DNA from: a virus
IMG/VR virus record: IMGVR_UViG_3300032050_000278
Location: 1 to 42,303 of that record
DNA: 42,303 nt
Direction: 5' to 3' (one strand)
Part shown: positions 8,882 to 42,303 of the stretch, one piece after another
Layout of the letters: each line of letters opens with the position of its first letter
Position numbering within the stretch: position 1 is the stretch's first letter
The notes under the pieces: model-generated
Database searches by the model: none
Told to the model about the DNA's origin: nothing
The model's input: the letters and a program-made list of their open reading frames with translations, nothing else
Made by a program: the position numbers and the translations under genes

Positions 8882-9179
8882 TATTCTCCAAGTAGTCTTC
8901 TTCGGGTAAACAGTTCCAACAAAATCCTTCGTATAATCCTTCTTCTTCCTGACAGAGGGTACAAGGTGGGAAAGGTTCTCTATCTAAAGGTGTTGCTGGT
9001 GTTACTAACGAACCGCATTGTCTACACTCGGCGTCTTCTAAACCGTATGCCGAAGGCATGTATCCAATTTCGTCAAACATTACTGACATACGAAACCAAT
9101 TACTATTACAATTAGGGCACGTTGGTGTTGGTATGCCACGGTAGTCGTACTTGTTTTTATTCTTGGGTTTGTTCGGCAT
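8871..9179 (-). CDS. Zinc-ribbon protein with four Cys pairs (102 aa)
   Basis: I chose the ATG at 9179 (MPNKPKNKNKYDYRG) because the longer reading frame would run deep into the sigma-like gene. CPNC, CRQC, CTLC and CWNC pairs are spread along the protein and could form two zinc ribbons. The N-terminus is basic. It overlaps the end of the sigma-like gene by 23 bases. It may bind nucleic acid or RNA polymerase, but no family is recognised. Confidence 0.75.
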   Translation of the reverse strand: MPNKPKNKNKYDYRGIPTPTCPNCNSNWFRMSVMFDEIGYMPSAYGLEDAECRQCGSLVTPATPLDREPFPPCTLCQEEEGLYEGFCWNCLPEEDYLENNDN

Positions 9180-9810
9180 CTTGACTTTTCTTGTAATCAT
9201 TGTCAACGAATGGTCGAGGTCCACCTAGTTCATCTATGAGTGCTTTCATAGCCCTGTCTACACGTTTACGTGCAGCATCAGCACTTATCTTTAACTCATT
9301 ACCGACATCTTCTAGAGATGTTGATAAGGAACCAAATCTAAGTCTTAAAACATTTTGATGACGTTCATCAATTGATTCGTATGCTTGGGATATGTCTGCT
9401 CTCACAGCCAACCACGTGTTGCCTTCCGAGACAACACTTCTGTTTGGTCTGTAGTTAACATCGTTAACACCTATTGGTATAAAATATGATTCAGTTAAAA
9501 TGTATGGAAGGAACTCTTCAATAATTGCTGGTTCATAATAGAATAAGTCTTGCACTTCGTAGCCAATAACTTTTGCTTTTTCTTTTGTGCAATACTTTTG
9601 TGCAGCGTTACGAAGTGAACGATTAATTAACTTGTTTTTATCTTTCTCGGAATGGTTTGTTTCCCATTCGTTTAACTTGTTGTTGTGGGTTATAAACCAA
9701 ACCCATAGTTCTTGCTTGATGTCGTCGGCGTCTAGCATCTGATATCTTTTGCTATATTCGTATGAGATGTGAGTTACTAGACCACCGTAGTTGTCTAAAT
9801 AATGTTGCAC
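9157..9810 (-). CDS. RNA polymerase sigma-factor-like protein (217 aa)
   Basis: GTG start with AAAGGGA upstream. Residues of about 14-45 (YEYSKRYQMLDADDIKQELW) match sigma region 2, and residues of about 160-192 (LEDVGNELKISADAARKRVD) form a region-4-type helix-turn-helix with the usual preceding RHQNVLRLRFG. The total length suits an ECF-like factor. It would redirect host polymerase to phage promoters, presumably the late block. An alternative is a sigma-like regulator without promoter specificity of its own. Confidence 0.8.
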   Translation of the reverse strand: MQHYLDNYGGLVTHISYEYSKRYQMLDADDIKQELWVWFITHNNKLNEWETNHSEKDKNKLINRSLRNAAQKYCTKEKAKVIGYEVQDLFYYEPAIIEEFLPYILTESYFIPIGVNDVNYRPNRSVVSEGNTWLAVRADISQAYESIDERHQNVLRLRFGSLSTSLEDVGNELKISADAARKRVDRAMKALIDELGGPRPFVDNDYKKSQDAEQTQE

Positions 9811-12971: not shown

Positions 12972-13607
12972 TTAGTCCTTATCTGTTTTGTTAAACCATT
13001 CGCAATGCTTAGTGTAACCGCATATTGAACAGTGGTTGATGTTTGGAAGAAAGTTACCTTGCTTCCTTTGACGGTCAAACTTATCCGCCAAATCTAATAC
13101 CCTCTCTTTCGAGAAGAAATCTAATGATACTGGTTCAGTTGGTTCACCTTTACGTGCCATCCAATAAGAACCATACTTAGGTCTAACACCATAGATTAAC
13201 TCAACACCTACAGCATAGAAACCTAATTGTAAAAATGTGCTTGGGGTTCTGGACCCAGTCTTGACGTCCAGAACCACAAGGTCCCCATTAGGTAATTCCA
13301 TAACTCTATCAAGTGTCATCTTAATAGAGAAGTTCTTATGTTGTACGTTCATATAAAGTTCTATAGCAGGTTCATTAGTTGGTGTTGTCCACACTTTCCA
13401 ATCACTTGTTGCTCTCCACTTTTGATATGACTTAAACATTTCAAAACCATTAGTGAACCACCAGTCTTTATCTTCAGGTGATTTTGATTTTGCTTTAGCA
13501 GAACGAAAAGGTTGATTCATTCCATCTGCACCTAGGCGTTGAACAAAGTCATCACCTGTTGCAGACCAAGCCTTCTTCCAATATTCGAAAGACTTATCAA
13601 CGTCCAT
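12972..13607 (-). CDS. Cas4/RecB-type nuclease, catalytic and C-terminal cluster part (211 aa)
   Basis: Motifs in order: E83 (AIELYM), D100 (MTLDR), D114-x-K116 (VVLDVKTG) and the QLGFYA helix at 127-132, which together make a complete RecB-family PD-(D/E)XK site. The end carries three cysteines, C193, C196 and C202 (CSICGYTKHC), as in Cas4-like Fe-S nucleases. The fourth cysteine expected at the N-terminus is found in the preceding 67-residue gene, which overlaps by 11 bases. The pair looks like one nuclease split in two. Confidence 0.85.
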   Translation of the reverse strand: MDVDKSFEYWKKAWSATGDDFVQRLGADGMNQPFRSAKAKSKSPEDKDWWFTNGFEMFKSYQKWRATSDWKVWTTPTNEPAIELYMNVQHKNFSIKMTLDRVMELPNGDLVVLDVKTGSRTPSTFLQLGFYAVGVELIYGVRPKYGSYWMARKGEPTEPVSLDFFSKERVLDLADKFDRQRKQGNFLPNINHCSICGYTKHCEWFNKTDKD

Positions 13608-13800
13608 TTATATTCCACTCATCTTTGTCCCAGTTCTCGGTGGCCTGATGAACAGCAACACCACCGTAGAGCCACCATGCTGGTGTCTCTTTCAATTGTT
13701 TAACACGTGATAAGTAATACAACCATCCACAATTTAGATAGTCAGTAAGACTTGAGTAGGAGATATGTTGAGGAACTTCTTCCCCATCAATCGTCACCAT
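13597..13800 (-). CDS. Cas4/RecB-type nuclease, N-terminal part (67 aa)
   Basis: SYSSLTDYLNCGWLYYLSRV is the standard opening of Cas4/AddB-like nucleases, with C24 as the lone N-terminal cluster cysteine, followed by GGVAVHQATENW (H51, the first active-site motif). The protein stops abruptly, and the next gene begins in another frame 11 bases earlier. The ribosome site before ATG 13800 is not obvious. Either a genuine two-piece gene or a frameshift in the sequence. Confidence 0.75.
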   Translation of the reverse strand: MVTIDGEEVPQHISYSSLTDYLNCGWLYYLSRVKQLKETPAWWLYGGVAVHQATENWDKDEWNINGR

Positions 13801-13888: not shown

Positions 13889-14671
13889 TTATTTCTTGCT
13901 TATTGAAAAACGGATATCCGTTTTCGTTTTGTTTGTTGTACATAGTCCACAAGTGTAGCACGCACCACCGTCTTTTGATATCAACGGAATTTGGCGTGTT
14001 TGCTCAGGACATTTAGCACCAGGCTTACCTGTTAACGCTCTGACCTGCAACGATGCCTCTTCAAAAGTGTCAGCCAACCATGCTAACTTGACATCATAGT
14101 CTTGGCGTAAACGCTTAGCCTCATCCACGTTGTCTTTGTCAGCCGAGAAATATAAACTAAGATTCTTAATCCCAGTTAACATCTCTACTGCACTAGGTAC
14201 CCTTGTGTACACCCAAAACTGTACGTCTTTGTTATGTTTAATAACTCGTCGCCATGCTTTTGTGTAATCTTCTGAAAAGAAATCACCATCCCAATGTATA
14301 CGAAATAGTTTTTCAGCATTGTACTTGTCGCAGTCATACTTGAAATCCTGAATCATAAACTGAATCATTTGTTGTAATTCGTTTACAGATTTATTTTGTA
14401 CAGCATCCCAATTAGCAAGCAACAATTCTCTGGTGCCTTTGAATATTTTTTCTAACTTACCTGCATAACATATCTTTTCGCAGACTGATGTAGCACCTGG
14501 ACAAGAAAATGATTTGCCAGATGGAAGACCAAAAGTATTTGCTACTAATGGTCTTTTGCCATCTGGCATAGTTATTGTTGCAGTTTTCCTATCGTTGTTG
14601 CGTCTCAGTCTGGGTAGACTAGAAGTCAACCTCAATACTTTCTTCTGAGTATGAATCATCATTGCCAGCAT
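13889..14671 (-). CDS. GP88-like protein of actinophages (up to 260 aa)
   Basis: The cysteine-rich segment FSCPGATSVCEKICYAGK, the HWDGDFFSEDYTKAW stretch and the CYTCGLC motif near the end fit the 'Gene product 88' family of mycobacteriophages; the biochemical role is unknown. The cysteines could bind a metal or cluster. The ATG at 14671 gives a 53-base overlap with the upstream gene; later starts (ATG 14662, 14659) or a TTG are possible. Confidence 0.75.
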   Translation of the reverse strand: MLAMMIHTQKKVLRLTSSLPRLRRNNDRKTATITMPDGKRPLVANTFGLPSGKSFSCPGATSVCEKICYAGKLEKIFKGTRELLLANWDAVQNKSVNELQQMIQFMIQDFKYDCDKYNAEKLFRIHWDGDFFSEDYTKAWRRVIKHNKDVQFWVYTRVPSAVEMLTGIKNLSLYFSADKDNVDEAKRLRQDYDVKLAWLADTFEEASLQVRALTGKPGAKCPEQTRQIPLISKDGGACYTCGLCTTNKTKTDIRFSISKK

Positions 14672-15182
14672 CTATCTGACTTTCAAGATTGCCAACTGCT
14701 GACTCAACTATTTCTCTTGCTTCATCTTCTGATTCAGCCTGAACAGTGAATGAGTAAGTGATAGTTACACGACCTTCGAACTCTTGTTTCAATAGGTCTG
14801 CACCTATGTCACCAAGTAACTCGTTGGCTTCATCACGATGAACAGTTATCTCATCTTCGTTACCATCGAACTGGTCTTTGAAGAAGGTATGAACTGTTGT
14901 TCTTAACGCATAGATTTGGTCACGGTAACCTCTACCGCGAACTTCTTCTGCTTCAAGGTCCGACTTCAATGTATCTATTTGTTTCTGTATTGCATCGAAC
15001 GGTGTGACCGTTGCGATTATTGATTCTTCTTCTGACATTTGTATTTCTCCTTTGTTGAGTGTGCCCTTACCCTTGCAGGTAGGGCACACGATGTTAAACA
15101 TTAATACTTGGGGAACAATCCCCAAGCCCTTACAATCAGGACACCATACTTCTGTTTCAGGATATGGAGTTTCATATCTCAT
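14619..15182 (-). CDS. Zinc-motif (DnaJ-like CxxCxGxG) protein with internal start, Glu-rich (187 aa)
   Basis: Residues 14-40 have two CxxCxGxG motifs (CPDCKGLG and CPTCKGKG), as in the DnaJ zinc domain. Residues 49-187 are acidic and helical (SEEESIIATVTPFDAIQKQI onward). A strong AAGGAG followed by ATG at 15038 lies in frame at residue 49, so a shorter 139-residue product starting MSEEES is likely made too. Start ATG 15182 overlaps the previous stop (ATGA). Confidence 0.75.
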   Translation of the reverse strand: MRYETPYPETEVWCPDCKGLGIVPQVLMFNIVCPTCKGKGTLNKGEIQMSEEESIIATVTPFDAIQKQIDTLKSDLEAEEVRGRGYRDQIYALRTTVHTFFKDQFDGNEDEITVHRDEANELLGDIGADLLKQEFEGRVTITYSFTVQAESEDEAREIVESAVGNLESQIDAGNDDSYSEESIEVDF

Positions 15183-16201: not shown

Positions 16202-16654
16202 TTATAGATATCTTGATACTGAAGCGTAAGTTGCTGTTGAAACAACATCTTCATCAGACAACTCAAGCATGCGAATAGCATTAGTTAAGTCAGCAACAAT
16301 GTCGTCATAGTCGTTGCTCACATAATGTCTGCCATTACCACGACCACCTCTGTAAGGAGGCGTTGGTTCTGTTGGCTCTTCTGGCAATTTAGCGTTATCA
16401 ACTTTTACTGTTATCTCAAACACAGTAATAGTGTCATCAGACTGCCACCTGCTTTTAGTCACACTAGTAACTAAGTCAAGATTCTTTAGAGCAATCTTCT
16501 TAATTGCTCCCTCGTAATCTTTCCAATTAGTTTTATGTGTTTCAACTGCTTTCTCGTAAAGTGATTGGTTCAAACACACTTCACTTAGTTTTTCTTTCAA
16601 GGCTGTCACAAGTTTATCTTTAGACACCTTGATATTTATTCCTTTACTTGCCAT
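16202..16654 (-). CDS. Hypothetical protein (150 aa)
   Basis: AAAGGAG precedes ATG 16654. The N-terminal half is basic and helical, the middle has a Pro/Gly/Arg linker (PTEPTPPYRGGRGNGRHYV), and the last 40 residues are acidic helix (NDYDDIVADLTNAIRMLELS). It lies 9 bases ahead of the DUF932 gene, so they are likely expressed together. No known family. Confidence 0.75.
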   Translation of the reverse strand: MASKGINIKVSKDKLVTALKEKLSEVCLNQSLYEKAVETHKTNWKDYEGAIKKIALKNLDLVTSVTKSRWQSDDTITVFEITVKVDNAKLPEEPTEPTPPYRGGRGNGRHYVSNDYDDIVADLTNAIRMLELSDEDVVSTATYASVSRYL

Positions 16655-16684
16655 GTTTGTTTCTCCTTTTGTTTTTGTTTTTTA

Positions 16685-17125
16685 CTACCAACTAGATTGG
16701 TACGTTATGTTCCAGTCTGCTGGTACTTCTTTTAGTACTCGCTCTACTTGTTCAATGGTTTGTTTGATACCTTCGAAGTACCATTCATCGTACTCATAAG
16801 TACCAAAGAAAAACCCTGATGCAGTTGGTAGTAACTCAGATGCACTAGTGTTATCAAGTTCTATTAGTTTACATATGTTTAATAGTTCTTGTAACTTTTC
16901 TCGCGAAACACCATACTCGTGGCAATCATCTTCGCCATCTTGTACGTTGTCAACGAACCATTTATGTACTGCATTTACTTTTCTCCAGTATGCAACTTCA
17001 ACTTTAAGCATCAGACTACCTGTAGTAGCAAAAGGTACTTCCTTTGTTAAAGTTTTGTATGTATCTGGTTTAAAATAATTTTCAGATGCAAACTCTTCTG
17101 CATATAAAAACATATCTAATCCCAT
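16685..17125 (-). CDS. Conserved phage hypothetical protein of the 'GLDM' type (146 aa)
   Basis: Start set at ATG 17125 because AGAGGAGA lies just upstream and the opening MGLDMFLYAEEF is the usual start of a common phage family; the longer frame would run into the hairpin leader. Further features: YWRKVNAVHKWFVDNVQDGE and a C-terminus FFFGTYEYDEWYFEGIKQT. Function unknown. Confidence 0.8.
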   Translation of the reverse strand: MGLDMFLYAEEFASENYFKPDTYKTLTKEVPFATTGSLMLKVEVAYWRKVNAVHKWFVDNVQDGEDDCHEYGVSREKLQELLNICKLIELDNTSASELLPTASGFFFGTYEYDEWYFEGIKQTIEQVERVLKEVPADWNITYQSSW

Positions 17126-17148
17126 TGTCTCCTCTTTTCTAATAGGTA

Positions 17149-17180
17149 AAGCCCTGCCTAGCGTTAACCAGGCAGGGCTT
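17149..17180. promoter_or_regulatory. Hairpin in the leader of the 17125 gene (possible terminator or attenuator)
   Basis: Perfect 11-bp stem AAGCCCTGCCT (17149-17159) with AGGCAGGGCTT (17170-17180). It lies just ahead of the ribosome site of the - strand gene at 17125 and behind the micro-gene train. There is no long T run, so its action as a terminator is uncertain. Confidence 0.6.
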
Positions 17181-17209
17181 GTTGACGACATTGCTAGTAT
17201 GGTTTCCTT

Positions 17210-17316
17210 AACACACAGGGGAAATGATTGTGTGTTATTGCCTTAGATATCATCAACTAATCTAAATAACTTAGAGGCTCCTGCTCACTTGCGTGTCAGG
17301 GACATCGTTATTTAGA
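17210..17316. other. Two further stem-loops in the 17126-17307 intergenic region
   Basis: AACACACA (17210-17217) pairs with TGTGTGTT (17229-17236), and TCTAAATAAC (17261-17270) pairs with GTTATTTAGA (17307-17316). The second stem includes the stop codon of the 55-residue gene ending at 17308, so it could act as an mRNA 3' end on the - strand. No gene is seen in 17126-17307. Confidence 0.55.
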
Positions 17317-17475
17317 AACTTTATCACTCAGTTCATCACACGTAAACACTAAAGTCACGTTAAGAATAGAACCATTACATTTCTTGCACAAAGAATCATA
17401 CATATTAACAGCCACCCAATCGTGGCTGCCAAGATTCTTACGTGCAGTATCAATGTCAACGTTAAGTCTACTCAT
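17308..17475 (-). CDS. Small protein with a CxxC motif (55 aa)
   Basis: ATG at 17475 overlaps the TGA of the upstream gene (ATGA). The sequence opens MSRLNVDIDTARKNLGSHDW, then LCKKCNGS provides a Cys pair, with one more Cys in VFTCDELS. It may bind zinc. It is the last gene of a train of small overlapping genes. Confidence 0.7.
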   Translation of the reverse strand: MSRLNVDIDTARKNLGSHDWVAVNMYDSLCKKCNGSILNVTLVFTCDELSDKVSK

Positions 17476-17558
17476 TCAGTTGTACCAAACTCGTATATAC
17501 AATCAGCACACATACCTTGATACTCTTTCTTGTGCTTCTTGCAATAATGTCTACTCAT
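17472..17558 (-). CDS. Micro-protein, zinc-motif (28 aa)
   Basis: ATG 17558 to TGA 17472. The pattern C-xx-H...C-xx-C (YCKKHKKEYQGMCADC) would form a single zinc knuckle. Overlaps its neighbours by 8 and 4 bases, which supports translation despite its size. Confidence 0.6.
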   Translation of the reverse strand: MSRHYCKKHKKEYQGMCADCIYEFGTTE

Positions 17559-17640
17559 TGTTGTCCTTACAATTAGAATCATGACCAATAGTAAAGTTAC
17601 AACCACATACCCAATGATGACAATTACATTTATCTGTCAT
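17551..17640 (-). CDS. Micro-protein, Cys/His-rich (29 aa)
   Basis: ATG 17640 to TAG 17551. Contains five Cys and three His (CNCHHWVCGC, then GHDSNC). It is coupled by ATGA overlap with the upstream membrane micro-gene and by 8 bases with the downstream gene. Probably metal-binding; function unknown. Confidence 0.6.
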   Translation of the reverse strand: MTDKCNCHHWVCGCNFTIGHDSNCKDNNE

Positions 17641-17726
17641 GGTTTTCTACTTTGATACAACATACCAAGTAGGAAAGAACTAACAGTAAACAATATTCCT
17701 ATTGCCAACCAGTCACCCCAATACAT
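17637..17726 (-). CDS. Micro-protein with one membrane segment (29 aa)
   Basis: Excellent ribosome site (AGGAGG, 4 bases before ATG 17726), which shares one base with the upstream TAA. Residues 6-24 are hydrophobic (WLAIGILFTVSSFLLGMLY) with a basic end (QSRKP). A small inner-membrane peptide is likely. Confidence 0.65.
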   Translation of the reverse strand: MYWGDWLAIGILFTVSSFLLGMLYQSRKP

Positions 17727-17992
17727 TAATCCTCCTCTTGTTCTTTAGGTTTAGGATAATTCCACTCATGCCCTTTTTCCTTAAGTAACTCTTTCAACTT
17801 TTTGTTCTCATTCCATAACACTTGCATATGTCTAACCTTAGTACTAGGTGCCAGCCCATACTCATCTAGCAAACTATAATACACCTCTTGATACTCATCA
17901 ATGTATTTGTTTTTAATAACATGCGCTGCCCTAGTAGCAAGATTACTGCGCAATCTTGTAATCTTCTCTGCATCAGTTAACTCTTTAGGCAT
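17726..17992 (-). CDS. Hypothetical helical protein (88 aa)
   Basis: ATG 17992 (MPKELTDAEKI) chosen because AGGAG lies 7 bases upstream within the end of the previous gene. Helical and charged, with an acidic tail (KEQEED). An HTH-like helix pair (LTDAEKITRLRSNLATRA) is visible but not convincing. Confidence 0.7.
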   Translation of the reverse strand: MPKELTDAEKITRLRSNLATRAAHVIKNKYIDEYQEVYYSLLDEYGLAPSTKVRHMQVLWNENKKLKELLKEKGHEWNYPKPKEQEED

Positions 17993-18260
17993 TGTCATTC
18001 TCCTCAACAGTAAACTTTTTTGATAATGCATCAAACAAATCACTATGCAATTGATTATCTATATCATCAAGATTAAAATCATAAAACTCCATGGCTTGGT
18101 CATGAACAAACCTAGTCACATCCATCCACGCAGTTTCGCCAAGAAAATCCTTAGCATGCTTACCATTCAGATTGACCTTGTAGTCAGCCCAGAAATCGTA
18201 TGGGTTAACAAAAACTTCTAACCCATTCTTTTCATACACACTTAAATATTTATCACTCAT
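17985..18260 (-). CDS. Hypothetical protein (91 aa)
   Basis: ATG 18260 overlaps the upstream TGA (ATGA). The sequence has VNPYDFWADYKVNLNGKHAK and an acidic helical end. No family recognised. Confidence 0.7.
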   Translation of the reverse strand: MSDKYLSVYEKNGLEVFVNPYDFWADYKVNLNGKHAKDFLGETAWMDVTRFVHDQAMEFYDFNLDDIDNQLHSDLFDALSKKFTVEENDNA

Positions 18261-18499
18261 CGTATCCCCTTGTATCTAATTAATAGTTCTTGTTTAAAAT
18301 GTGCCCACTGTTCATCATTTAAACCGCGAGCAATATCCATAGCAGAGACAAGCAACTCCGAAGCGTCTTCTTTACCCCACTTGTAGTCGCCATCCCAATC
18401 AGCCTTAGCCTGCACGTTATCAATAACATTGCAAGTAAAATAGAAAGCAATGTTCTTTAATTCGTGCGGCAATATTTTTAACTCTAATGTTCCACTCAT
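18257..18499 (-). CDS. Hypothetical protein (80 aa)
   Basis: ATG 18499 follows AGAGGAGA. The N-terminal half is mixed (LELKILPHELKNIAFYFTCN), the C-terminal half helical. No recognised motif. ATGA-coupled on both sides. Confidence 0.7.
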   Translation of the reverse strand: MSGTLELKILPHELKNIAFYFTCNVIDNVQAKADWDGDYKWGKEDASELLVSAMDIARGLNDEQWAHFKQELLIRYKGIR

Positions 18500-18636
18500 T
18501 TGTTCTCCTCTAATATTTCTTCTAATGTTTTACCTTCACAGGTAGCACAGATAACTGTTCCATCAGGATAGATGTGTCCACCTTCACCGTCCATATCAAT
18601 GTCGTTTTTACAACATTCACATATGACCCAGCACAT
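18496..18636 (-). CDS. Small zinc-ribbon protein (46 aa)
   Basis: ATG 18636 with AAGGAG 8 bases upstream. CECC near the start and CATC near residue 30 give a four-Cys zinc site, followed by an acidic helix (LEEILEENK). Overlaps the stop of the upstream gene by one base and the start of the next by four. Confidence 0.7.
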   Translation of the reverse strand: MCWVICECCKNDIDMDGEGGHIYPDGTVICATCEGKTLEEILEENK

Positions 18637-18782
18637 TACACATTCTCCTTTGTTTGCTTAACATGTATCTCACCATCAATAAGTAATTCATCAAGCAAAT
18701 CATACAAACCTGAAAGATTATAAATGTTTGCATTTTTGATTAACTCTTTGTACTCTTCAATTTCTGTATCATTAATTCTCAT
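18636..18782 (-). CDS. Small helical hypothetical protein (48 aa)
   Basis: ATG 18782 shares a base with the upstream TAA; its own TAA shares a base with the next ATG. Sequence is charged and helical (NDTEIEEYKELIKNANIYNL). No family recognised; supported by the tight overlaps. Confidence 0.65.
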   Translation of the reverse strand: MRINDTEIEEYKELIKNANIYNLSGLYDLLDELLIDGEIHVKQTKENV

Positions 18783-19021
18783 TAGGCATCTACCTCAGAA
18801 ACAATCTTGTTGTCATCACCAATAGTTCTCAAAATCCTAGGTGGTTCCTCACCACACGGATAAAAAGAAGCCTTGTGTGTAGACTTACAATCACATTCCA
18901 CACACCTAATATCACCATCTTGACTAGCAAAACGGTGCGTAAAATAATTCAACATAGCCTGAGCCTGTTGTTCAGGTGTATCCATAGGAAACGGTTTAGG
19001 AACATTAATAACATGAGTCAT
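18782..19021 (-). CDS. Hypothetical protein with Cys cluster (79 aa)
   Basis: Start overlaps the preceding TGA (ATGA). Residues of about 39-45 carry CVECDC, and a further Cys lies in FYPCGEEPPR, a possible zinc site. No family recognised. Confidence 0.7.
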   Translation of the reverse strand: MTHVINVPKPFPMDTPEQQAQAMLNYFTHRFASQDGDIRCVECDCKSTHKASFYPCGEEPPRILRTIGDDNKIVSEVDA

Positions 19022-19284
19022 CGTGCAGCATCCATCTCTGCTTGACCAATCTCACGCCACTCTGTTTGCTTGATGTCAAGAATCTCATCAATACGAGCAG
19101 CAATCAACATTGATGCACGAGCCAGTTGCAAACCAGCCAAACCAAGACACGCATCAATATCACCAACACCGTAATCAGTATCCAAATCAGCAGACCACAA
19201 CGGAGTCTCATCCATAAGCGCAGCCATCTGGTCAACCTTACTACGAATAGTATTCAACAACACGTACTCTTTATCTAAACTCAT
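19018..19284 (-). CDS. Hypothetical helical protein (88 aa)
   Basis: AAAAGGAGAAG ahead of ATG 19284. Mostly alpha-helical (MLIAARIDEILDIKQTEW). No motif recognised. Coupled by four-base overlaps on both sides. Confidence 0.7.
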   Translation of the reverse strand: MSLDKEYVLLNTIRSKVDQMAALMDETPLWSADLDTDYGVGDIDACLGLAGLQLARASMLIAARIDEILDIKQTEWREIGQAEMDAAR

Positions 19285-19391
19285 TTACTTCTCCTTTTAA
19301 ATAGTTTCGGACCTTTTACATACATTGTACCAAAAAACACTGTCGCAAAATATGCAAAAGCAATTAAGCCATCAACATATCTAGTAGCCAT
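19281..19391 (-). CDS. Single-pass membrane micro-protein (36 aa)
   Basis: I set the start at ATG 19391 because AAAGG lies upstream; the longer frame would begin in a region better explained by the 50-residue gene. Residues 8-26 are hydrophobic (LIAFAYFATVFFGTMYV), the end is basic (KLFKRRSK). Confidence 0.6.
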   Translation of the reverse strand: MATRYVDGLIAFAYFATVFFGTMYVKGPKLFKRRSK

Positions 19392-19533
19392 CTGTAACCT
19401 TTCTGTGTGAACCAGCCTTTCCGCAGGAAAGAAGGCTGGTGAACTTCTTGCTGTCCATGCCATACATAAGGGCGGGGTTTGTGTTGGGTAAACATTGTGT
19501 AACCATGTAACCTATAACTGATTGATATAACAT
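19381..19533 (-). CDS. Small hypothetical protein, tentative (50 aa)
   Basis: ATG 19533 is preceded by AAGGA 5 bases upstream and the TAG overlaps the next gene by 11 bases, like its neighbours. The sequence starts MLYQSVIGYMVTQCLP. A 43-residue alternative frame (ATG 19495) overlaps it; this one has the better ribosome site. A GC-rich hairpin (ACCAGCCTT with AAGGCTGGT) lies inside it, so a noncoding leader is the alternative. Confidence 0.4.
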   Translation of the reverse strand: MLYQSVIGYMVTQCLPNTNPALMYGMDSKKFTSLLSCGKAGSHRKVTDGY

Positions 19534-19611
19534 TGTTATCCTTATCTGGCGATAGCGCCGACTGAGTCATGCCCGAAGTTGGGCTGACGAAGGAGGCAAC
19601 GGATTTTTTTT

Positions 19612-19656
19612 AAAAAAATAAACTAGCAAGGCTGACCGAAGCCAGCCCTGTTAGTT
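19612..19656 (-). terminator. Rho-independent terminator of the 19667 gene
   Basis: On the - strand a 16-bp stem (19641-19656 with 19621-19636, two GU pairs, one mismatch) closes a TTCG tetraloop and is followed by TATTTTTTT at 19620-19612. This is a strong terminator directly behind the 168-residue gene and separates it from the small-gene train. Confidence 0.9.
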
Positions 19657-19666
19657 TGTGTTGGGG

Positions 19667-20173
19667 TTAGGCGACGACCAAGCCCCACTTTACTGCAATA
19701 TCTTGGCTTACCTTGTGTGAGCCAATTTGCACACCATTAGAGTTAACATAAGGTGCTTGATAATCTGATATATTTGCTAACCAAGATTTACGTAATTCTG
19801 ATGCTTTTGCAGAATTAACTTGGTTAGCATATAACAGATAGTAAGAATCGTGATATAAAACCTTTTTGGTTGGATACACGATATCTATTTCATAATGCAT
19901 ATTCATTAAGTCGTGGACAGAGAATCTGTCAACGATACTAGACCAAGAGTCTTTGACTCTTGTGTCTGTTGTTTCTTCTTGAGGTTCTGGATTGTAGATA
20001 GGCAAGCCAGAATCCTCATCAACAGTAACGTAGCCGTTAACTGTTTTATGGTCGACAACAACATCATCAACATCTATGAAGTGGCGACCTTCAGAGTCCA
20101 CATACTCTGTGGACTTTTGTTCAATGTCTTCTGTAACATACAGAGCATTGGTTTGTGTTGGATACCAAGACAT
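19667..20173 (-). CDS. Hypothetical protein (168 aa)
   Basis: AAAGGAG precedes ATG 20173. Acidic N-terminal part (DVDDVVVDHKTVNGYVTV), with a C-terminal region LRKSWLANISDYQAPYVNSN. No family recognised. Monocistronic: it lies between a structured noncoding region and its own terminator. Confidence 0.75.
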   Translation of the reverse strand: MSWYPTQTNALYVTEDIEQKSTEYVDSEGRHFIDVDDVVVDHKTVNGYVTVDEDSGLPIYNPEPQEETTDTRVKDSWSSIVDRFSVHDLMNMHYEIDIVYPTKKVLYHDSYYLLYANQVNSAKASELRKSWLANISDYQAPYVNSNGVQIGSHKVSQDIAVKWGLVVA

Positions 20174-20215
20174 CTTTACTCCTTTTCTTTTAACTACCGA
20201 TTTGGTAATTATAAA

Positions 20216-20362
20216 GCCAAGACCAATTGGTTGGTTGCAGTCTTGTCAAATCATGTAGTTGATTATAACAATTTGGTGCAAGTTTTTCCCGTTTTTGGAA
20301 AAAGTTCTCCAAATCGTTATAATCATTGATTTGACGAGCAAGACCAGCCAATTAGGCTTGGC
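20216..20362. repeat. Long imperfect inverted repeat (147 bp) in noncoding DNA
   Basis: GCCAAG...AATTGG...TGTCAAATCA on the left (from 20216) reappears reversed on the right (TGATTTGACG...CCAATTAGGCTTGGC, ending 20362). The core pairs GATTATAACAATTTGG (20261-20276) with CCAAATCGTTATAATC (20309-20324), one mismatch, closing on TTTTTCC / GGAAAAA around 20283-20303. Could be an origin, a cruciform operator or a structured RNA. Confidence 0.8.
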
Positions 20363-20376
20363 GGGTACTACTAGAG

Positions 20377-20425
20377 CCGTTTACATAACGCGGAATTTTG
20401 TTTACAAAATTACGCTGTATAACGG
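20377..20425. other. Stem-loop in the 20174-20517 noncoding region
   Basis: Outer arms CCGTT/AACGG, a middle GCG/CGC and an inner perfect 8-bp stem AATTTTGT (20394-20401) with ACAAAATT (20404-20411). It adjoins the long inverted repeat. The 344 bp between the two hypothetical genes has no credible gene. Confidence 0.6.
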
Positions 20426-20465
20426 CGGAGCGAAGTAATCACTCGTGACACCAGTCTGGAAGACT

Positions 20466-20510
20466 TAAACCTACACGCCGCGAGCGTTTGCTGCGAGACG
20501 TGTAGGTTTA
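20466..20510 (-). terminator. Possible terminator or 3' hairpin of the 20518 gene
   Basis: Perfect 12-bp arms TAAACCTACACG (20466-20477) and CGTGTAGGTTTA (20499-20510) just beyond the stop of the - strand gene. The loop is 21 bases and there is no long T run, so its strength as a terminator is uncertain. Confidence 0.6.
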
Positions 20511-20517
20511 GCCCTAA

Positions 20518-20883
20518 TTAGTTATGGTCTTGAACTTCCAAAGCCACTTGGAAATCAACAATGTTTCTAAAGGTACGAGGAGATTTATCTGAACCTTTAG
20601 CAACACGTTCCATAACAGGTTCGAACACGATTTCTGCAAAATCTGCAACATATCGAGTTTGACCCTTACTATTCTGGATAGGCTCAGCCAAGCCAGAATC
20701 AACCAATTCCTTTAATCTGTTAACGATTACAGGATTATTGCTAGTCACATACTCGTAACCCATTTGAGTATACGGAGTACCGTTGCTTGACCATTTTTGT
20801 GTTGAACCATTAATAGAAATGGCTGCACGTTTCTCATCTGGGAATGAGATACTGCCTTTAACTGCTGTTGCACTGAACGCCAT
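20518..20883 (-). CDS. Hypothetical protein, first gene of the leftward block (121 aa)
   Basis: AAAGGATG lies before ATG 20883, with a small hairpin (AGAGGC/GCCTCT at 20903-20919) just ahead in the leader. The start is MAFSATAVKGSISFPDEKRA and the end MERVAKGSDKSPRTFRNIVD then VALEVQDHN. Mixed alpha/beta; a DNA-binding role is possible from position, but no family is recognised. Confidence 0.75.
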   Translation of the reverse strand: MAFSATAVKGSISFPDEKRAAISINGSTQKWSSNGTPYTQMGYEYVTSNNPVIVNRLKELVDSGLAEPIQNSKGQTRYVADFAEIVFEPVMERVAKGSDKSPRTFRNIVDFQVALEVQDHN

Positions 20884-21053
20884 GATGTTGTCATCCTTTC
20901 ACAGAGGCTATCTGCCTCTTTGGCATTTATGACAAAGAGCAGTAGCCAGTCACCATCTCGCACTTCTTGCCATCAGTACCAGATAAGGACAGGCTCACCC
21001 ATAGCCTCAACCAGACTGACTTCATCCGTGGATGGATAGTTATGGTTACATGG

Positions 21054-21166
21054 GTAAGTCTGAGGATGCCACAGCGTGGCTCCGAGGACTTACGTCTGCA
21101 AAAACACTGGCACCGCGTAGCGGTGGGCTGCCGTAGGCAGCAGGTCTGCGAGCCTGCGAGCAGACC
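21054..21166. ncRNA. Cluster of four GC-rich stem-loops, possible structured RNA or DNA site (tentative)
   Basis: In order: GTAAGTC (21054-21060) with GACTTAC (21087-21093), with inner GCCAC/GTGGC; CACCGC-gta-GCGGTG (21111-21125); GCTGCC-gta-GGCAGC (21127-21141); GGTCTGC (21143-21149) with GCAGACC (21160-21166). The two middle hairpins share a GTA loop. GC content is far above the surroundings. It lies in the 589-bp region between the divergent blocks, just upstream of the terminase gene. Role unknown. Confidence 0.5.
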
Positions 21167-21252
21167 CCAGGGTTTTTAACCGACGTGTGACTGTCGTATG
21201 TATAGTGTTTTTATATATTTCTGTTACAGATACAGGGGAATATATACGGTTT

Positions 21253-21281
21253 ATATAACATTTTGGTAACGTTTATAACAA
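21253..21281 (-). promoter_or_regulatory. Candidate leftward promoter
   Basis: On the - strand TTGTTA (21281-21276) and TTATAT (21258-21253) are 17 bases apart, a reasonable sigma-70-like promoter reading into the early block. It overlaps the repeated TTATAAC-type motifs. Based on hexamer match only. Confidence 0.4.
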
Positions 21282-21287
21282 TTTGGT
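21254..21287 (+). repeat. Tandem copies of a 15-base motif also found at 20263-20277
   Basis: TTATAACAATTTGGT occurs exactly at 21273-21287 and 20263-20277. Variants: TATAACATTTTGGTAA at 21254-21269, and on the - strand TTATAACGATTTGG at 20309-20322. ATTTGGTAA also occurs at 20200-20208. All lie in noncoding DNA, consistent with operator or iteron sites. Confidence 0.65.
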
Positions 21288-21333
21288 AAATTGTTGTCCG
21301 CTTTTGTATTTTGGACGGATTAGTATATAGTGA

Positions 21334-21390
21334 GGGGTCTTTTAGACCCCGAACATGGTTTACTTATATGAGCCCCCTAAAGGGGCTCAT
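21334..21390. other. Two strong hairpins ahead of the terminase gene
   Basis: GGGGTCT-ttt-AGACCCC (21334-21350) and ATGAGCCCC-ctaaa-GGGGCTCAT (21368-21390). They lie between the leftward promoter region and the terminase start at 21473. They could end stray transcripts or form part of a packaging site. Confidence 0.6.
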
Positions 21391-21472
21391 CTAGATGGTT
21401 TTATTATTGTTACATTGGTGTATATATTGTTGTTACACAGTTAGTGTTTATTAATGCGGGGGCGTCTGTTTT

Positions 21473-23350
21473 ATGGCAAAGTTTCAATCTGGTGCCCAGC
21501 ATCCTTTAATCAAGGACACTGTTGAGGCTAAGACCAAAGTGCTATCCCATGTTAGGGAAGGCATTAGTGTTAAGCAGGCCATGGGCCTTGTGGGTAGACA
21601 AGAAGGCACCCTACGCCAATGGTTATCCAGGGATGCTAAGTTTGCCTCTGCGTTAGAAGACGCTAAAGAAGAGGGCGCCACCAGGGATTTGAGTGGTGAC
21701 AAGTTTTCTTTTGAGTTTGCTGAGTTTTCAAAAAATTTTTTGAACAGTAGTGTGTTCCCTCATCAACAGAATTGGGTTGATGTTTTGGAGGGTCGTACCC
21801 CTTCTTGGTTGCATCCGTCTATGACGTATGAGCCTTCTGATGATAAGACTCGTTTGTTAATTAATGTGCCCCCTGAGCATGCCAAGTCGACTACGATTAC
21901 TGTTAATTATTCGACTTACAAGATTTGTATGGACCCTGACAATACTCGTATTATTGTTATTTCTAAAACCCTGACTAAGGCTCAGGAGTTTGTTTATTCT
22001 ATTAAGCAACGTTTGACTCATCCTATGTGGGCTAAGATGCAGGCAACTTATGCCCCTCCTGGTGGTTGGCGTGAGGATGCTGATTCTTGGAAAGCCAACG
22101 CTATTACTCTTTCTCGTAACTCTACCGAAAAAGACCCTACTGTTCAGGCTTTGGGTATTGGTGGTCAAGTATATGGTGCCCGCGCTAACTTGATTATTCT
22201 TGATGACTGTGTGACTGGTGCTAACGCACATGAGTGGGAAAAGCAACTTGAGTGGATTCAGAAAGAAGTTATTACTCGTCTAGATGATGAGGGTGTGCTT
22301 CTAGTGTTGGGTACACGCTTTGCTGCCAATGACCTTTACCGTGAGATTAGAAGCCCTAAGCATTGGTCTAATGGTAAGTCTCCGTTTACATATTTTGCTA
22401 TGCCAGCAGTTTTAGAGTTTAAGGATAGCCCAAAAGATTGGGTTACTCTTTGGCCTAAGACTGACCAGAAGTCTGGTTCTAAAGAACCAAACGCTGAAGG
22501 TCTTTACAATAAATGGGACGGTCCAGCCCTTTATAGAAGACGTGGTGAAGTAACTCCGTCTACTTGGGCTTTGGTTTACCAGCAACAAGACATTCAAGAA
22601 AATTCAATTTTTTCCCCTGTCTGTGTTCAAGGTTCTATTAATGGTATGCGCCGTGTAGGTCCTTTACGTCCAAATGTTTTAGGTCACCCACAAGGTGGAG
22701 ACTTTTACACTATTATGGGTATTGACCCTGCTATGACAGGTAACACTGCAGCAGTTGTTATGGCTTTTGAACGTGGTACTCAGAAACGTTATATTCTTGA
22801 TGTTCACAATATGCGAGACCCTGACCCCCAAAAAATTCGGGCGCTCATGGAAGACTGGGTTAACAAGTACCCTATTAATGAGATGCGTATAGAAATTAAC
22901 GCACATCAAAAATCTTATGCTTTAGACACTGAACTGAACCAATATTTTGCTTCACGTGGTGTACAGATTCGTTCCCATTACACAAGTAAGAACAAGTGGG
23001 ATGAAACTTTTGGTGTTGCAGGTATGGCTGCTTTGTTTGGAACTGTACGTGATGGTAAACATCAAGACGACAGTTTGATTGAACTACCATCCTCTGAGAA
23101 CAATGAGCACGTTAAAGCGTTAATTAACCAGTTGATTACTTGGGATGCAAACGCACGAAAGTCTCAAAAGACTGATTGTGTTATGGCTTTGTGGTTTTGT
23201 GAGATTAGGGCTAAGGAATTAGTTCAACAATCAGGTTTTATGCAAACACATATAGAAAACAGATATACAACAAGACGTGGTGTTAATCAACGTGGTGTTG
23301 TTAATTTAGATGAACTAGCAGCACAACAGTATTCTCAATTATATTATTAG
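21473..23350 (+). CDS. terL: Terminase large subunit with N-terminal HTH (625 aa)
   Basis: ATPase: Walker A-like PPEHAKST at residues 133-140 and Walker B NLIILDD at 239-245. Nuclease: TIMGIDPAMTGNTAAVVMAF near residue 430 supplies the first aspartate of the RNase H-like fold. Residues of about 24-60 (REGISVKQAMGLVGRQEGT) resemble the helix-turn-helix of small terminase subunits, and no separate small subunit gene is visible. It is the first gene of the late block; the ribosome site is weak. It cuts and translocates genomic DNA into the procapsid. Confidence 0.9.
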   Translation: MAKFQSGAQHPLIKDTVEAKTKVLSHVREGISVKQAMGLVGRQEGTLRQWLSRDAKFASALEDAKEEGATRDLSGDKFSFEFAEFSKNFLNSSVFPHQQNWVDVLEGRTPSWLHPSMTYEPSDDKTRLLINVPPEHAKSTTITVNYSTYKICMDPDNTRIIVISKTLTKAQEFVYSIKQRLTHPMWAKMQATYAPPGGWREDADSWKANAITLSRNSTEKDPTVQALGIGGQVYGARANLIILDDCVTGANAHEWEKQLEWIQKEVITRLDDEGVLLVLGTRFAANDLYREIRSPKHWSNGKSPFTYFAMPAVLEFKDSPKDWVTLWPKTDQKSGSKEPNAEGLYNKWDGPALYRRRGEVTPSTWALVYQQQDIQENSIFSPVCVQGSINGMRRVGPLRPNVLGHPQGGDFYTIMGIDPAMTGNTAAVVMAFERGTQKRYILDVHNMRDPDPQKIRALMEDWVNKYPINEMRIEINAHQKSYALDTELNQYFASRGVQIRSHYTSKNKWDETFGVAGMAALFGTVRDGKHQDDSLIELPSSENNEHVKALINQLITWDANARKSQKTDCVMALWFCEIRAKELVQQSGFMQTHIENRYTTRRGVNQRGVVNLDELAAQQYSQLYY

Positions 23351-40917: not shown

Positions 40918-41247
40918 ATGGCAATCACATATAAGGTGCTAGGTCAATCAGCACCATCAGCAACAACCAACACAGATGTTTATACTGTTGGAGCAGGGAA
41001 GCAAACAACTATTTCTACTATTACGGTTTGTAATCGTGGAACATCTTCAGCAACGTATCGTATCGCTGTTAGACCTAACGGTGCAACAATAGCAAACGAA
41101 CATTACATTGCCTATGATGCACCTATTGGTTCTAATGATTCTGTTACTTGGACTATTGGTATGACTGTTGATGCAGCAGATGTTGTTACTGTTTATGCGT
41201 CTACAGCAAACTTGTCTGTTAATATCTTCGGAGCGGAGATTGCGTAA
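40918..41247 (+). CDS. Tail-fibre-associated adaptor protein (109 aa)
   Basis: AAGGAAAAC before ATG 40918. A common small phage protein (AITYKVLGQSAPSATTNTDV, VCNRGTSSATYRIAVRP), beta-rich, always close to fibres in phages I know. The C-terminal 54 residues recur at 1-167. It is coupled by TAATG to the tip protein. Confidence 0.8.
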   Translation: MAITYKVLGQSAPSATTNTDVYTVGAGKQTTISTITVCNRGTSSATYRIAVRPNGATIANEHYIAYDAPIGSNDSVTWTIGMTVDAADVVTVYASTANLSVNIFGAEIA

Positions 41248-41309
41248 TGGGTGTTAAATCAGCAACGGCTTTTGGTTTGACTAGTGGTTTAGAACCTGCA
41301 ATGGTTTTT
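41081..41309 (+). repeat. Near-identical copy of 1-229
   Basis: Matching partner of the repeat at the window start; differences fall at the positions corresponding to 128, 199, 200 and 219. See the finding on end homology. Confidence 0.9.
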
Positions 41310-41798
41310 TTAACTACTCAAACTTTTTCTGGAGTAACTTCTGTATCTTTACCTAATAATACTTTTACTGATACCTATGACAATTATTTGTTATTTATGA
41401 CTGTCAATGCTAACTCAGCAGATACTCAAATAAGAATGAAAATGAGAGCCTCTGGAACAGATTTTAGTGGTAGTGATTACAATTTTGCTTATGCGCGTGC
41501 AAGGTCTACTGCACAAAGTATTGACACAGGTGGCTCAAGCAATACAAGTTTTTATCTTGGTGAAGTTGAAAGTGCTTTTAATGGTCGTGCTGCATACAAA
41601 ATGGATATAATTAGTCCAAAACTTTTGGATAGAACAAGATACTTTGGTATCGCTGTTGATTCTGATACAGCAAGTAATTACGCTGCTGGTACTGTTGGTG
41701 GGGTTCTTAATAATGCTTTGGCTTATGACTCAGTAACTGTGATTGCTGATACTGGAACTTTTGGTGGTTTTTATTCTGTGTACGGTTACAACAAATAG
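41247..41798 (+). CDS. Putative variable tail-tip / receptor-binding domain protein (183 aa)
   Basis: Shares the MGVKSATAFGL head and the VYGYNK end with the 182-residue protein at 167, but the body (DYNFAYARARSTAQSIDTGG onward) is quite different. The pair shows the pattern expected of rapidly varying receptor-binding proteins. Start overlaps the adaptor stop by one base (TAATG). Confidence 0.7.
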   Translation: MGVKSATAFGLTSGLEPAMVFLTTQTFSGVTSVSLPNNTFTDTYDNYLLFMTVNANSADTQIRMKMRASGTDFSGSDYNFAYARARSTAQSIDTGGSSNTSFYLGEVESAFNGRAAYKMDIISPKLLDRTRYFGIAVDSDTASNYAAGTVGGVLNNALAYDSVTVIADTGTFGGFYSVYGYNK

Positions 41799-41809
41799 GA
41801 GTATGACAA

Positions 41810-42303
41810 ATGGCTAAACAAGCGTACGTGTATTCTGGAACCGACTGGGTTCCTTTAGCATCTGAGGTTACTAACCTTTCTGCTTATCAGACTAAAGCAT
41901 TAAACCAGTTTCCTTACAGGAATTTATTAATTAATGGTGATATGCAGGTTGCACAACGTTCAACTTCTGTTGCCTCTATTACTGCTTCTAGTTATAATAC
42001 AGCAGATAGATGGAGATTTTCTAATAGTTCTACTATGGGAACTTGGACACAATCTGTAGAAAACGATGCACCAACAGGTTCAGGTTTTAGAAAATCTTTA
42101 AAGATGCTTGTTACTACAGCAGACGCTTCACCTGCTGCTGGGGATTATGTTTTTATTAATCAAAAACTTGAAGGACAAAATGTTCAAGTAATCAAAAAAG
42201 GTACAGCAGCAGCCGAACAATTAACTGCTTCTTTTTGGGTTAAATCAAATGTTACTGGTACCTATGTTCTTGAAATTTTTGATAATGATAATTCTCGTCA
42301 TAC
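41810..42303 (+). CDS. Tail fibre protein, N-terminal part (3' end outside the window)
   Basis: Opens MAKQAYVYSGTDWVPLASEV, as the complete 372-residue fibre at 745 does. The two agree well over the first 60 residues, and then diverge in blocks (RWRFSNSSTMGTWTQSVEND versus RWASTVNTLGTWTQSVEND). Cut off by the window end after 164 codons. Confidence 0.85.
   Translation, partial: MAKQAYVYSGTDWVPLASEVTNLSAYQTKALNQFPYRNLLINGDMQVAQRSTSVASITASSYNTADRWRFSNSSTMGTWTQSVENDAPTGSGFRKSLKMLVTTADASPAAGDYVFINQKLEGQNVQVIKKGTAAAEQLTASFWVKSNVTGTYVLEIFDNDNSRH

Follow-up and report, generated by a model that had tools for sequence, protein, structure and literature searches.

A conserved structured element, very probably an RNA, at the junction of the first two early genes of a tailed phage

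The stretch of DNA analysed in this work (hereafter, the window) is the whole of a virus record of 42,303 bases and belongs to a tailed phage; the terminase closest to its own is that of an uncultured phage (53% identity), followed by those of Streptomyces phages (about 43%). The rightward gene block, comprising the terminase and later genes, begins at 21,473, and the leftward block on the minus strand, starting from about 20.9 kb, carries replication-type functions (helicase, primase, exonuclease and resolvase). An apparent sigma factor is encoded at 9157-9810 (sigma-70 region 4, Pfam 1.9e-6; PHROG sigma-K 2.7e-17); since the phage seems to encode such a factor, it may use promoters that depart from the consensus of the host. 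The first two minus-strand genes, P0002 (20518-20883, upstream) and P0001 (19667-20173, downstream), are separated by the gap in which the element described here is located. No Pfam or PHROG family was matched by P0001 at E 0.001, and its structure model was poor (pLDDT 40.2) and hence not used; the gene occurs in two very different alleles among relatives harboring the same element. Its ribosome-binding site, AAAAGGAG on the minus strand, can be read directly from the sequence at 20179-20186, and the terminator scan placed an intrinsic-terminator-like hairpin with a TTCG loop after the gene (19627-19650, minus strand). P0002 has no significant Pfam or PHROG family either. The best PDB matches of its AlphaFold model (pLDDT 80.9) are single-strand DNA-binding (SSB) proteins (Foldseek E 3.4e-3), and its best VIA match has Z 8.3 and an rmsd of 3.8 over 86 residues; because Z values of 7-8 are common between unrelated models, the predicted SSB-like OB fold is suggestive only. 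In the genome contig collection, 76 stretches matched the pattern for P0002 relatives and none was confirmed. The P0002 alignment (A5) omits L018 and L054, which are doubtful relatives, and L036, which is not a relative.

A preliminary description of the window had reported an imperfect inverted repeat of 147 bp at 20216-20362. The repeat, referred to as H1, is real, lies exactly at that place and exceeds chance by a wide margin (z of the RNA fold, about -9 to -11). Its arms run from GCCAAG (20216) to CTTGGC (20362), and when the 3' arm is reverse-complemented and aligned with the 5' arm, the result contains 57 Watson-Crick pairs, five wobble-type pairs, five other mismatches and 13 gap columns. 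When both strands were folded, as had been advised, both were found far below chance, with minimum free energies of -67.9 (plus) and -60.4 (minus) kcal/mol for the 147 nt and z of -11.2 and -9.1, respectively. In a fold scan of 516 windows of 120 nt on both strands (218 in 16501-23100 and 298 outside), the lowest z, -8.8, was that of 20221-20340, i.e., the strongest structure of the scan. The closure of the hairpin on TTTTTCC/GGAAAAA is present in the window, but it is no kept feature, because the inner part is mostly deleted in the related contigs L017 and L013. The statement that no gene crosses the hairpin held, the reading frames inside it being short and non-persistent between relatives; a coding sequence anywhere in the gap was ruled out on the same ground, since no frame persists.

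Homologues, whose absence would have refuted the preliminary description, were found in five IMG/VR contigs, with identities of 100% (L002), 99% (L007), 98% (L009), 84% (L017) and 80% (L013). Their comparison indicates that the 147-bp repeat is correctly placed but is only a part of the conserved unit, which is the whole 344-nt interval from the P0002 stop codon to the P0001 start codon (20174-20517, minus strand), referred to as type A. Alignments A1 and A2 do not include L002, which is 100% identical to the window in this interval; duplicate loci of the same contigs were also omitted. For the full gap, the fold z is -13.5 (minus strand) and -10.9 (plus strand). Proceeding along the minus strand, the P0002 stop codon is followed by H3 (20510-20466), H2 (20426-20376), H1 (20362-20216), H0 (20215-20187), the ribosome-binding site and the P0001 start codon. 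H3, which corresponds to helix 2 of the covariation analysis, shows one compensatory change from A-U to G-C and is without a following T-run. H2 is embedded in an invariant block of 60 nt (20370-20429). H1 is the largest part and is defined by folds, arm swap, neutral simulation and covarying pairs. H0 (helix 11) is a small hairpin just upstream of the ribosome-binding site; 8 of its 12 pairs are invariant and, on the minus strand, the variable ones switch for the most part between U-G and U-A.

The covariation that the preliminary description had proposed to look for was found, and it favors the minus strand. Between the window and L007, just three of 344 sites differ (20190, in H0, 20228 and 20350), and the last two are partners in H1 that changed together, from U-A in the window to C-G in L007 on one strand. 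Between the window and L017, 107 of the 147 window positions of H1 are identical, yet both sequences fold almost completely. The covariation counts are small because the five aligned rows fall into few groups (window, L007 and L009 versus L017 and L013); moreover, in the rebuilt part of the stem the MAFFT alignment of window-like with L017-like H1 sequences is uncertain, so that pair counts undercount compensation there. Arm-swap and simulation tests were used since they depend less on that alignment. The penalty for exchanging arms between relatives is about 6-36 kcal/mol. For the plus strand, the chimera of the window 5' arm with the L017 3' arm and the reverse one reach -52.7 and -42.0, against native values of -67.9 (window) and -62.8 (L017); on the minus strand, the same two chimeras reach -34.6 and -52.4, against -60.4 and -64.6.

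In the neutral simulation, copies of the window hairpin were given randomly placed substitutions, matched in number and kind, and the same gaps. The simulated H1 descendants average -34 and -32, versus -62.8 and -64.6 for L017, and the native fold was reached by 0/500 both for window-to-L017 and for window-to-L013. The whole element behaved in the same way, with 0/150 reaching the native value for L017 and L013 on both strands. The very close pairs were not significant, either from window to L007 (43 and 53 of 500) or from window to L009 (4 and 21 of 150), while the L017-to-L013 simulation gave 20/500 (plus) and 1/500 (minus). Without H1, the rest of the element, simulated alone, gave 48 and 17 of 150 for L017 (not significant) and 9 and 5 of 150 for L013; the strong selection signal therefore sits in H1. 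These comparisons support the idea that the fold is maintained by selection, and the element is very probably a selected structured RNA.

As far as the strand is concerned, the RNAalifold consensus is -114.1 on the minus strand versus -105.3 on the plus strand, and the pairs in which both partners changed number six versus three. The covariation score was reached by none of 500 shuffles on the minus strand versus 79/500 on the plus strand, the shuffles ignoring relatedness. When the partners were slid, pairing dropped from 97.3% to at most 41.8% and the covariation signal was gone. The energy gained from G-U pairs in the window, L017 and L013 is, respectively, 18.1, 19.5 and 24.4 kcal/mol on the minus strand versus 13.4, 5.8 and 2.3 on the plus strand. 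Against this, it is the plus strand that gives the lower energy when the window H1 is folded by itself (-67.9 vs -60.4), and the element of a second type (type B, see below) is without a clear strand preference. Both flanking genes lie on the minus strand, and neither strand of the gap (20174-20517) has a reported terminator-like site, i.e., a GC-rich hairpin with a T-run; the TTCG-loop hairpin after P0001 fits transcription of the minus strand. On the whole, the minus strand, which is that of the early mRNA, is favored by the comparison of sequences as the one that fits the element best.

Another conserved structured noncoding stretch precedes P0002 (20884-21205). In its 20960-21205 portion, the native energy was reached in the window-to-L009 simulation by 0/150 on the plus strand and 5/150 on the minus strand, so that the strand preference is non-uniform over the region and the plus strand may be the RNA in that stretch. 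A structured gap upstream of the terminase was present in most of the 36 sequences having enough upstream DNA (the window and 35 loci).

The preliminary description had offered three natures for the repeat, i.e., a structured RNA, a replication origin or a cruciform operator. The first is well supported by the compensatory changes in relatives and by the wobble pairs, mostly on the minus strand; for the other two no support was obtained. A DNA-level element, whether origin, cruciform operator or packaging-related site, might account for the pairing kept on both strands and for a palindrome that also folds as single-stranded DNA (-38.6 and -36.1 kcal/mol), and the neighboring P0002 is predicted to be SSB-like. 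However, the cumulative GC skew is lowest at 21027, between the divergent blocks and near the switch in gene direction that accounts for it, and not at the hairpin, as would be expected for a phage origin marked by a skew switch independent of gene direction. The wobbles are strand-biased, and relatives have unrelated sequence in its place at the same junction. The two copies of a 15-base motif that had been noticed facing each other inside the hairpin are there, one exact (20263-20277, plus strand) and one with two mismatches (20308-20322, minus strand), but they are not kept in the L017 and L013 hairpins. At the same stem positions L017 carries TTAAAACAATTTGAT and TTACAACGATTTGAT on the two arms, which indicates that the motif is not conserved within the hairpin; its decay while the pairing stays argues against an operator. 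Allowing up to three mismatches, the motif has nine matches in the window against 4.14 expected, a number reached by 2/100 shuffles. A DNA-level role is thus regarded as improbable. Further copies of the motif are located at 21273 (exact) and 21253 (two mismatches), and 21253-21287 contains two direct copies of a TTATAACAATTTGGT-like sequence, 20 bases apart, between the divergent gene blocks, a possible regulator site.

A selfish palindromic repeat of the MITE type that landed in the gap could explain why the element is present in some relatives and absent from others (L005, L011, L015 and L016 are without type A). It is, nevertheless, found always at the same junction; the window harbors a single copy, and in six related records the extra matches are merely weak ones of 34-45 nt. 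A mobile repeat was rejected accordingly and deserves hardly any credence.

The comparison of the junction in relatives reveals a varied picture. P0002 is encoded by 11 contigs, two of which (L008 and L012) end inside the gene; the junction is visible in the other nine and is structured in each of them. Type A is carried by five (L002, L007, L009, L013 and L017). Two others (L005 and L011) have type B, which is structured but unrelated and about 420-510 nt long, and for which the simulation test gave 0/150 in both directions and on both strands. The remaining two (L015 and L016) have type C, short gaps bearing hairpins, whose fold z on the minus versus the plus strand is -6.5 versus -2.4 in L015 and -3.9 versus -2.0 in L016. 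The slot limits of L005, L011 and L016 were not taken from simple ORF picking, which mis-calls them. The P0001 protein is 88% identical to that of the window in L005 and 27-32% identical in L017, L013 and L011; by DNA identity, the allele of L007 and L009 is that of the window. Therefore, type A is found with one P0001 allele in the window, L007 and L009 and with the other in L013 and L017, and type B with one in L005 and the other in L011. Since both types are paired with both alleles, the element appears to recombine independently of the downstream gene, and the view that it is a module exchanged in this way is supported by the available sequences. It might also be imagined that the junction is a swap slot in which unrelated structured RNAs (A, B and C) replace each other as accessory cassettes, like protein-coding accessory genes, with A and B being two new families of RNAs directed at the host or its defenses; this broader proposal is speculative and rather doubtful.

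The two main hairpins seem to be under opposite constraints: H1 is fairly free in sequence while its shape is held, and in H2 it is the sequence that is held. The 60-nt block around H2 shows zero differences in L007, L009, L017 and L013, beside a diverging P0002 that has 23% differences in L017 and L013 (55 of 122 third positions). This invariance suggests that H2 probably has a sequence-specific partner. One way to account for it is a trans-acting noncoding RNA, cut from the early message or transcribed apart from it and directed to a host or phage target (as a decoy, anti-defense or antisense RNA), for which H2 would provide the recognition and H1 the scaffold. The movement of the module independently of the downstream gene and the occupation of the same slot by unrelated structured elements would be in line with it, but no promoter-like or terminator-like site of its own is reported on the minus strand of the gap, it is without a known target and it has no Rfam match. 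A trans-acting role is therefore held to be unlikely, though it is the first of the alternatives in weight; if it were true, the element would represent a new phage RNA family.

Searching Rfam 15 at the gathering threshold gave no matches to 4227 families over the window, and an E-value search of 19280-21480 gave nine sub-threshold matches, the best being to microRNA hairpin models (E 0.045). No related DNA for 19500-21500 was found in 50,697 phage records at distant sensitivity, and an exact 28-base H2 pattern had no occurrence in the genome contig collection. No published description of the element was found in a literature search limited to openly licensed papers. Judged by the database searches made, the structured RNA is new, although its general kind is known.

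Three known kinds can be compared with it. GOLLD and ROOL are large structured phage RNAs without a known protein partner, a trait shared by the element; GOLLD is often longer than 800 nt, and both are often near tRNA islands (PMC12286853). The element, with its 344 nt, is below that length, and no tRNA gene is present in the window; the GOLLD and ROOL covariance models gave no match at the gathering threshold.

The second comparison is with the antitermination RNAs putL and putR of HK022, which are likewise cis RNA structures in a phage early transcript, of about 70 nt, with two stem-loops, and located downstream of early promoters (PMC9378689). In a reading of this kind, the element would be a nascent-RNA structure acting on RNA polymerase, so that early transcription passes the terminator after P0001 and others. 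It is placed early in the early operon, ahead of the terminator-like site at 19650-19627, its H2 is invariant as if recognized, and a second RNA motif (CCAACACAAAC, see below) shows enrichment immediately ahead of terminators in this group of phages. However, the comparison, made by description, finds an element that departs from the about 70 nt and two stem-loops of put: it is far larger (344 nt), has four hairpins or more and contains a long duplex, close to 60 pairs, that evolves freely, and types B and C share no core with type A. An antitermination function of this sort is considered less probable than a trans-acting one, although less remote than a DNA-level role.

The third comparison is with the intercistronic hairpins of T7, T3 and lambda, phages whose RNAs are targets of RNase III, for which 22 nt of duplex is quoted as the minimum target (PMC5371410). 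The element resembles them in having a long duplex between early genes and in that H1 keeps its structure over its sequence; the predicted H1, with 57 Watson-Crick pairs, is well beyond a duplex of about 22 bp. It is unlike them in its length of 344 nt, in its invariant second hairpin and in being the single such hairpin in the scan, and cleavage is here a prediction. Relatives hold unrelated folded RNAs at the same place, which suggests that the element probably controls or cuts the early message.

On these grounds, the reading tentatively preferred, with a likelihood somewhat short of even, is that the early transcript contains a new structured RNA, which probably works in cis as a processing or insulation module with an RNase III-like duplex. 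The inverted repeat would be the main stem of a structured noncoding RNA of the minus strand, part of the early message between P0002 and P0001 and acting in cis at the gene junction. Its duplex would most likely be a processing site for the host RNase III, or for a similar duplex-specific step, splitting the P0002 message from that of P0001. H2 and H3 might then protect the 3' end of the P0002 message, and H0 would remain at the 5' end of the P0001 message, beside its ribosome-binding site. RNase III processing leaves the 60-nt invariance around H2 unexplained, and the invariant H2 would imply an additional specific partner. Processing of the T7 type would also predict several such hairpins between early genes; contrary to this, H1 stands alone in the fold scan. 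If cis-acting, the element would serve phages of uncultured bacteria as a compact module for processing or antitermination. Annotation seeks mainly proteins, and structured RNAs of phage early operons are therefore easily overlooked; the comparative signal described here marks one such RNA, indicates its strand and reveals a junction where RNA structures replace each other.

Some other features of the phage can be mentioned. An 11-base motif, CCAACACAAAC (minus strand), is located at 19654, 20151, 19477 and 7456 of the window and also occurs in L005, L009, L011, L013, L015, L017, L027 and several of L056-L081. In a sample made of the window and 22 loci chosen for holding the motif, it has 40 distinct occurrences in 23 sequences, versus an expectation of 0.12 under uniform composition. 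A terminator-like hairpin with a T-run follows within 12 nt in 13/40 cases, versus 51/1840 random places, and a stop triplet is found at most 9 nt upstream in 23/40; it is a candidate antitermination or terminator-cassette RNA motif. Directly after the start codon of both P0001 alleles (window 20151; L017 and L013) lies CAACACAAACC, which is read in different frames (YPTQTN versus LLNTNQ) and thus seems to be kept as nucleic acid. A Q-like antitermination PHROG (E 7.4e-4) and Anti-TRAP (E 1.4e-4, below the cut-off) are weakly matched by the protein encoded at 14619-15182. An exonuclease-like gene extends over two overlapping frames (12972-13607 and 13597-13800) that match successive parts of one PHROG profile, a split due to a frameshift, either programmed or an error. 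Lastly, the record ends (1-1232 and 41081-42300) are 82-93% alike in three stretches with a spacing of about 41.07 kb, representing either paralogous genes or a terminal redundancy assembled from variants.
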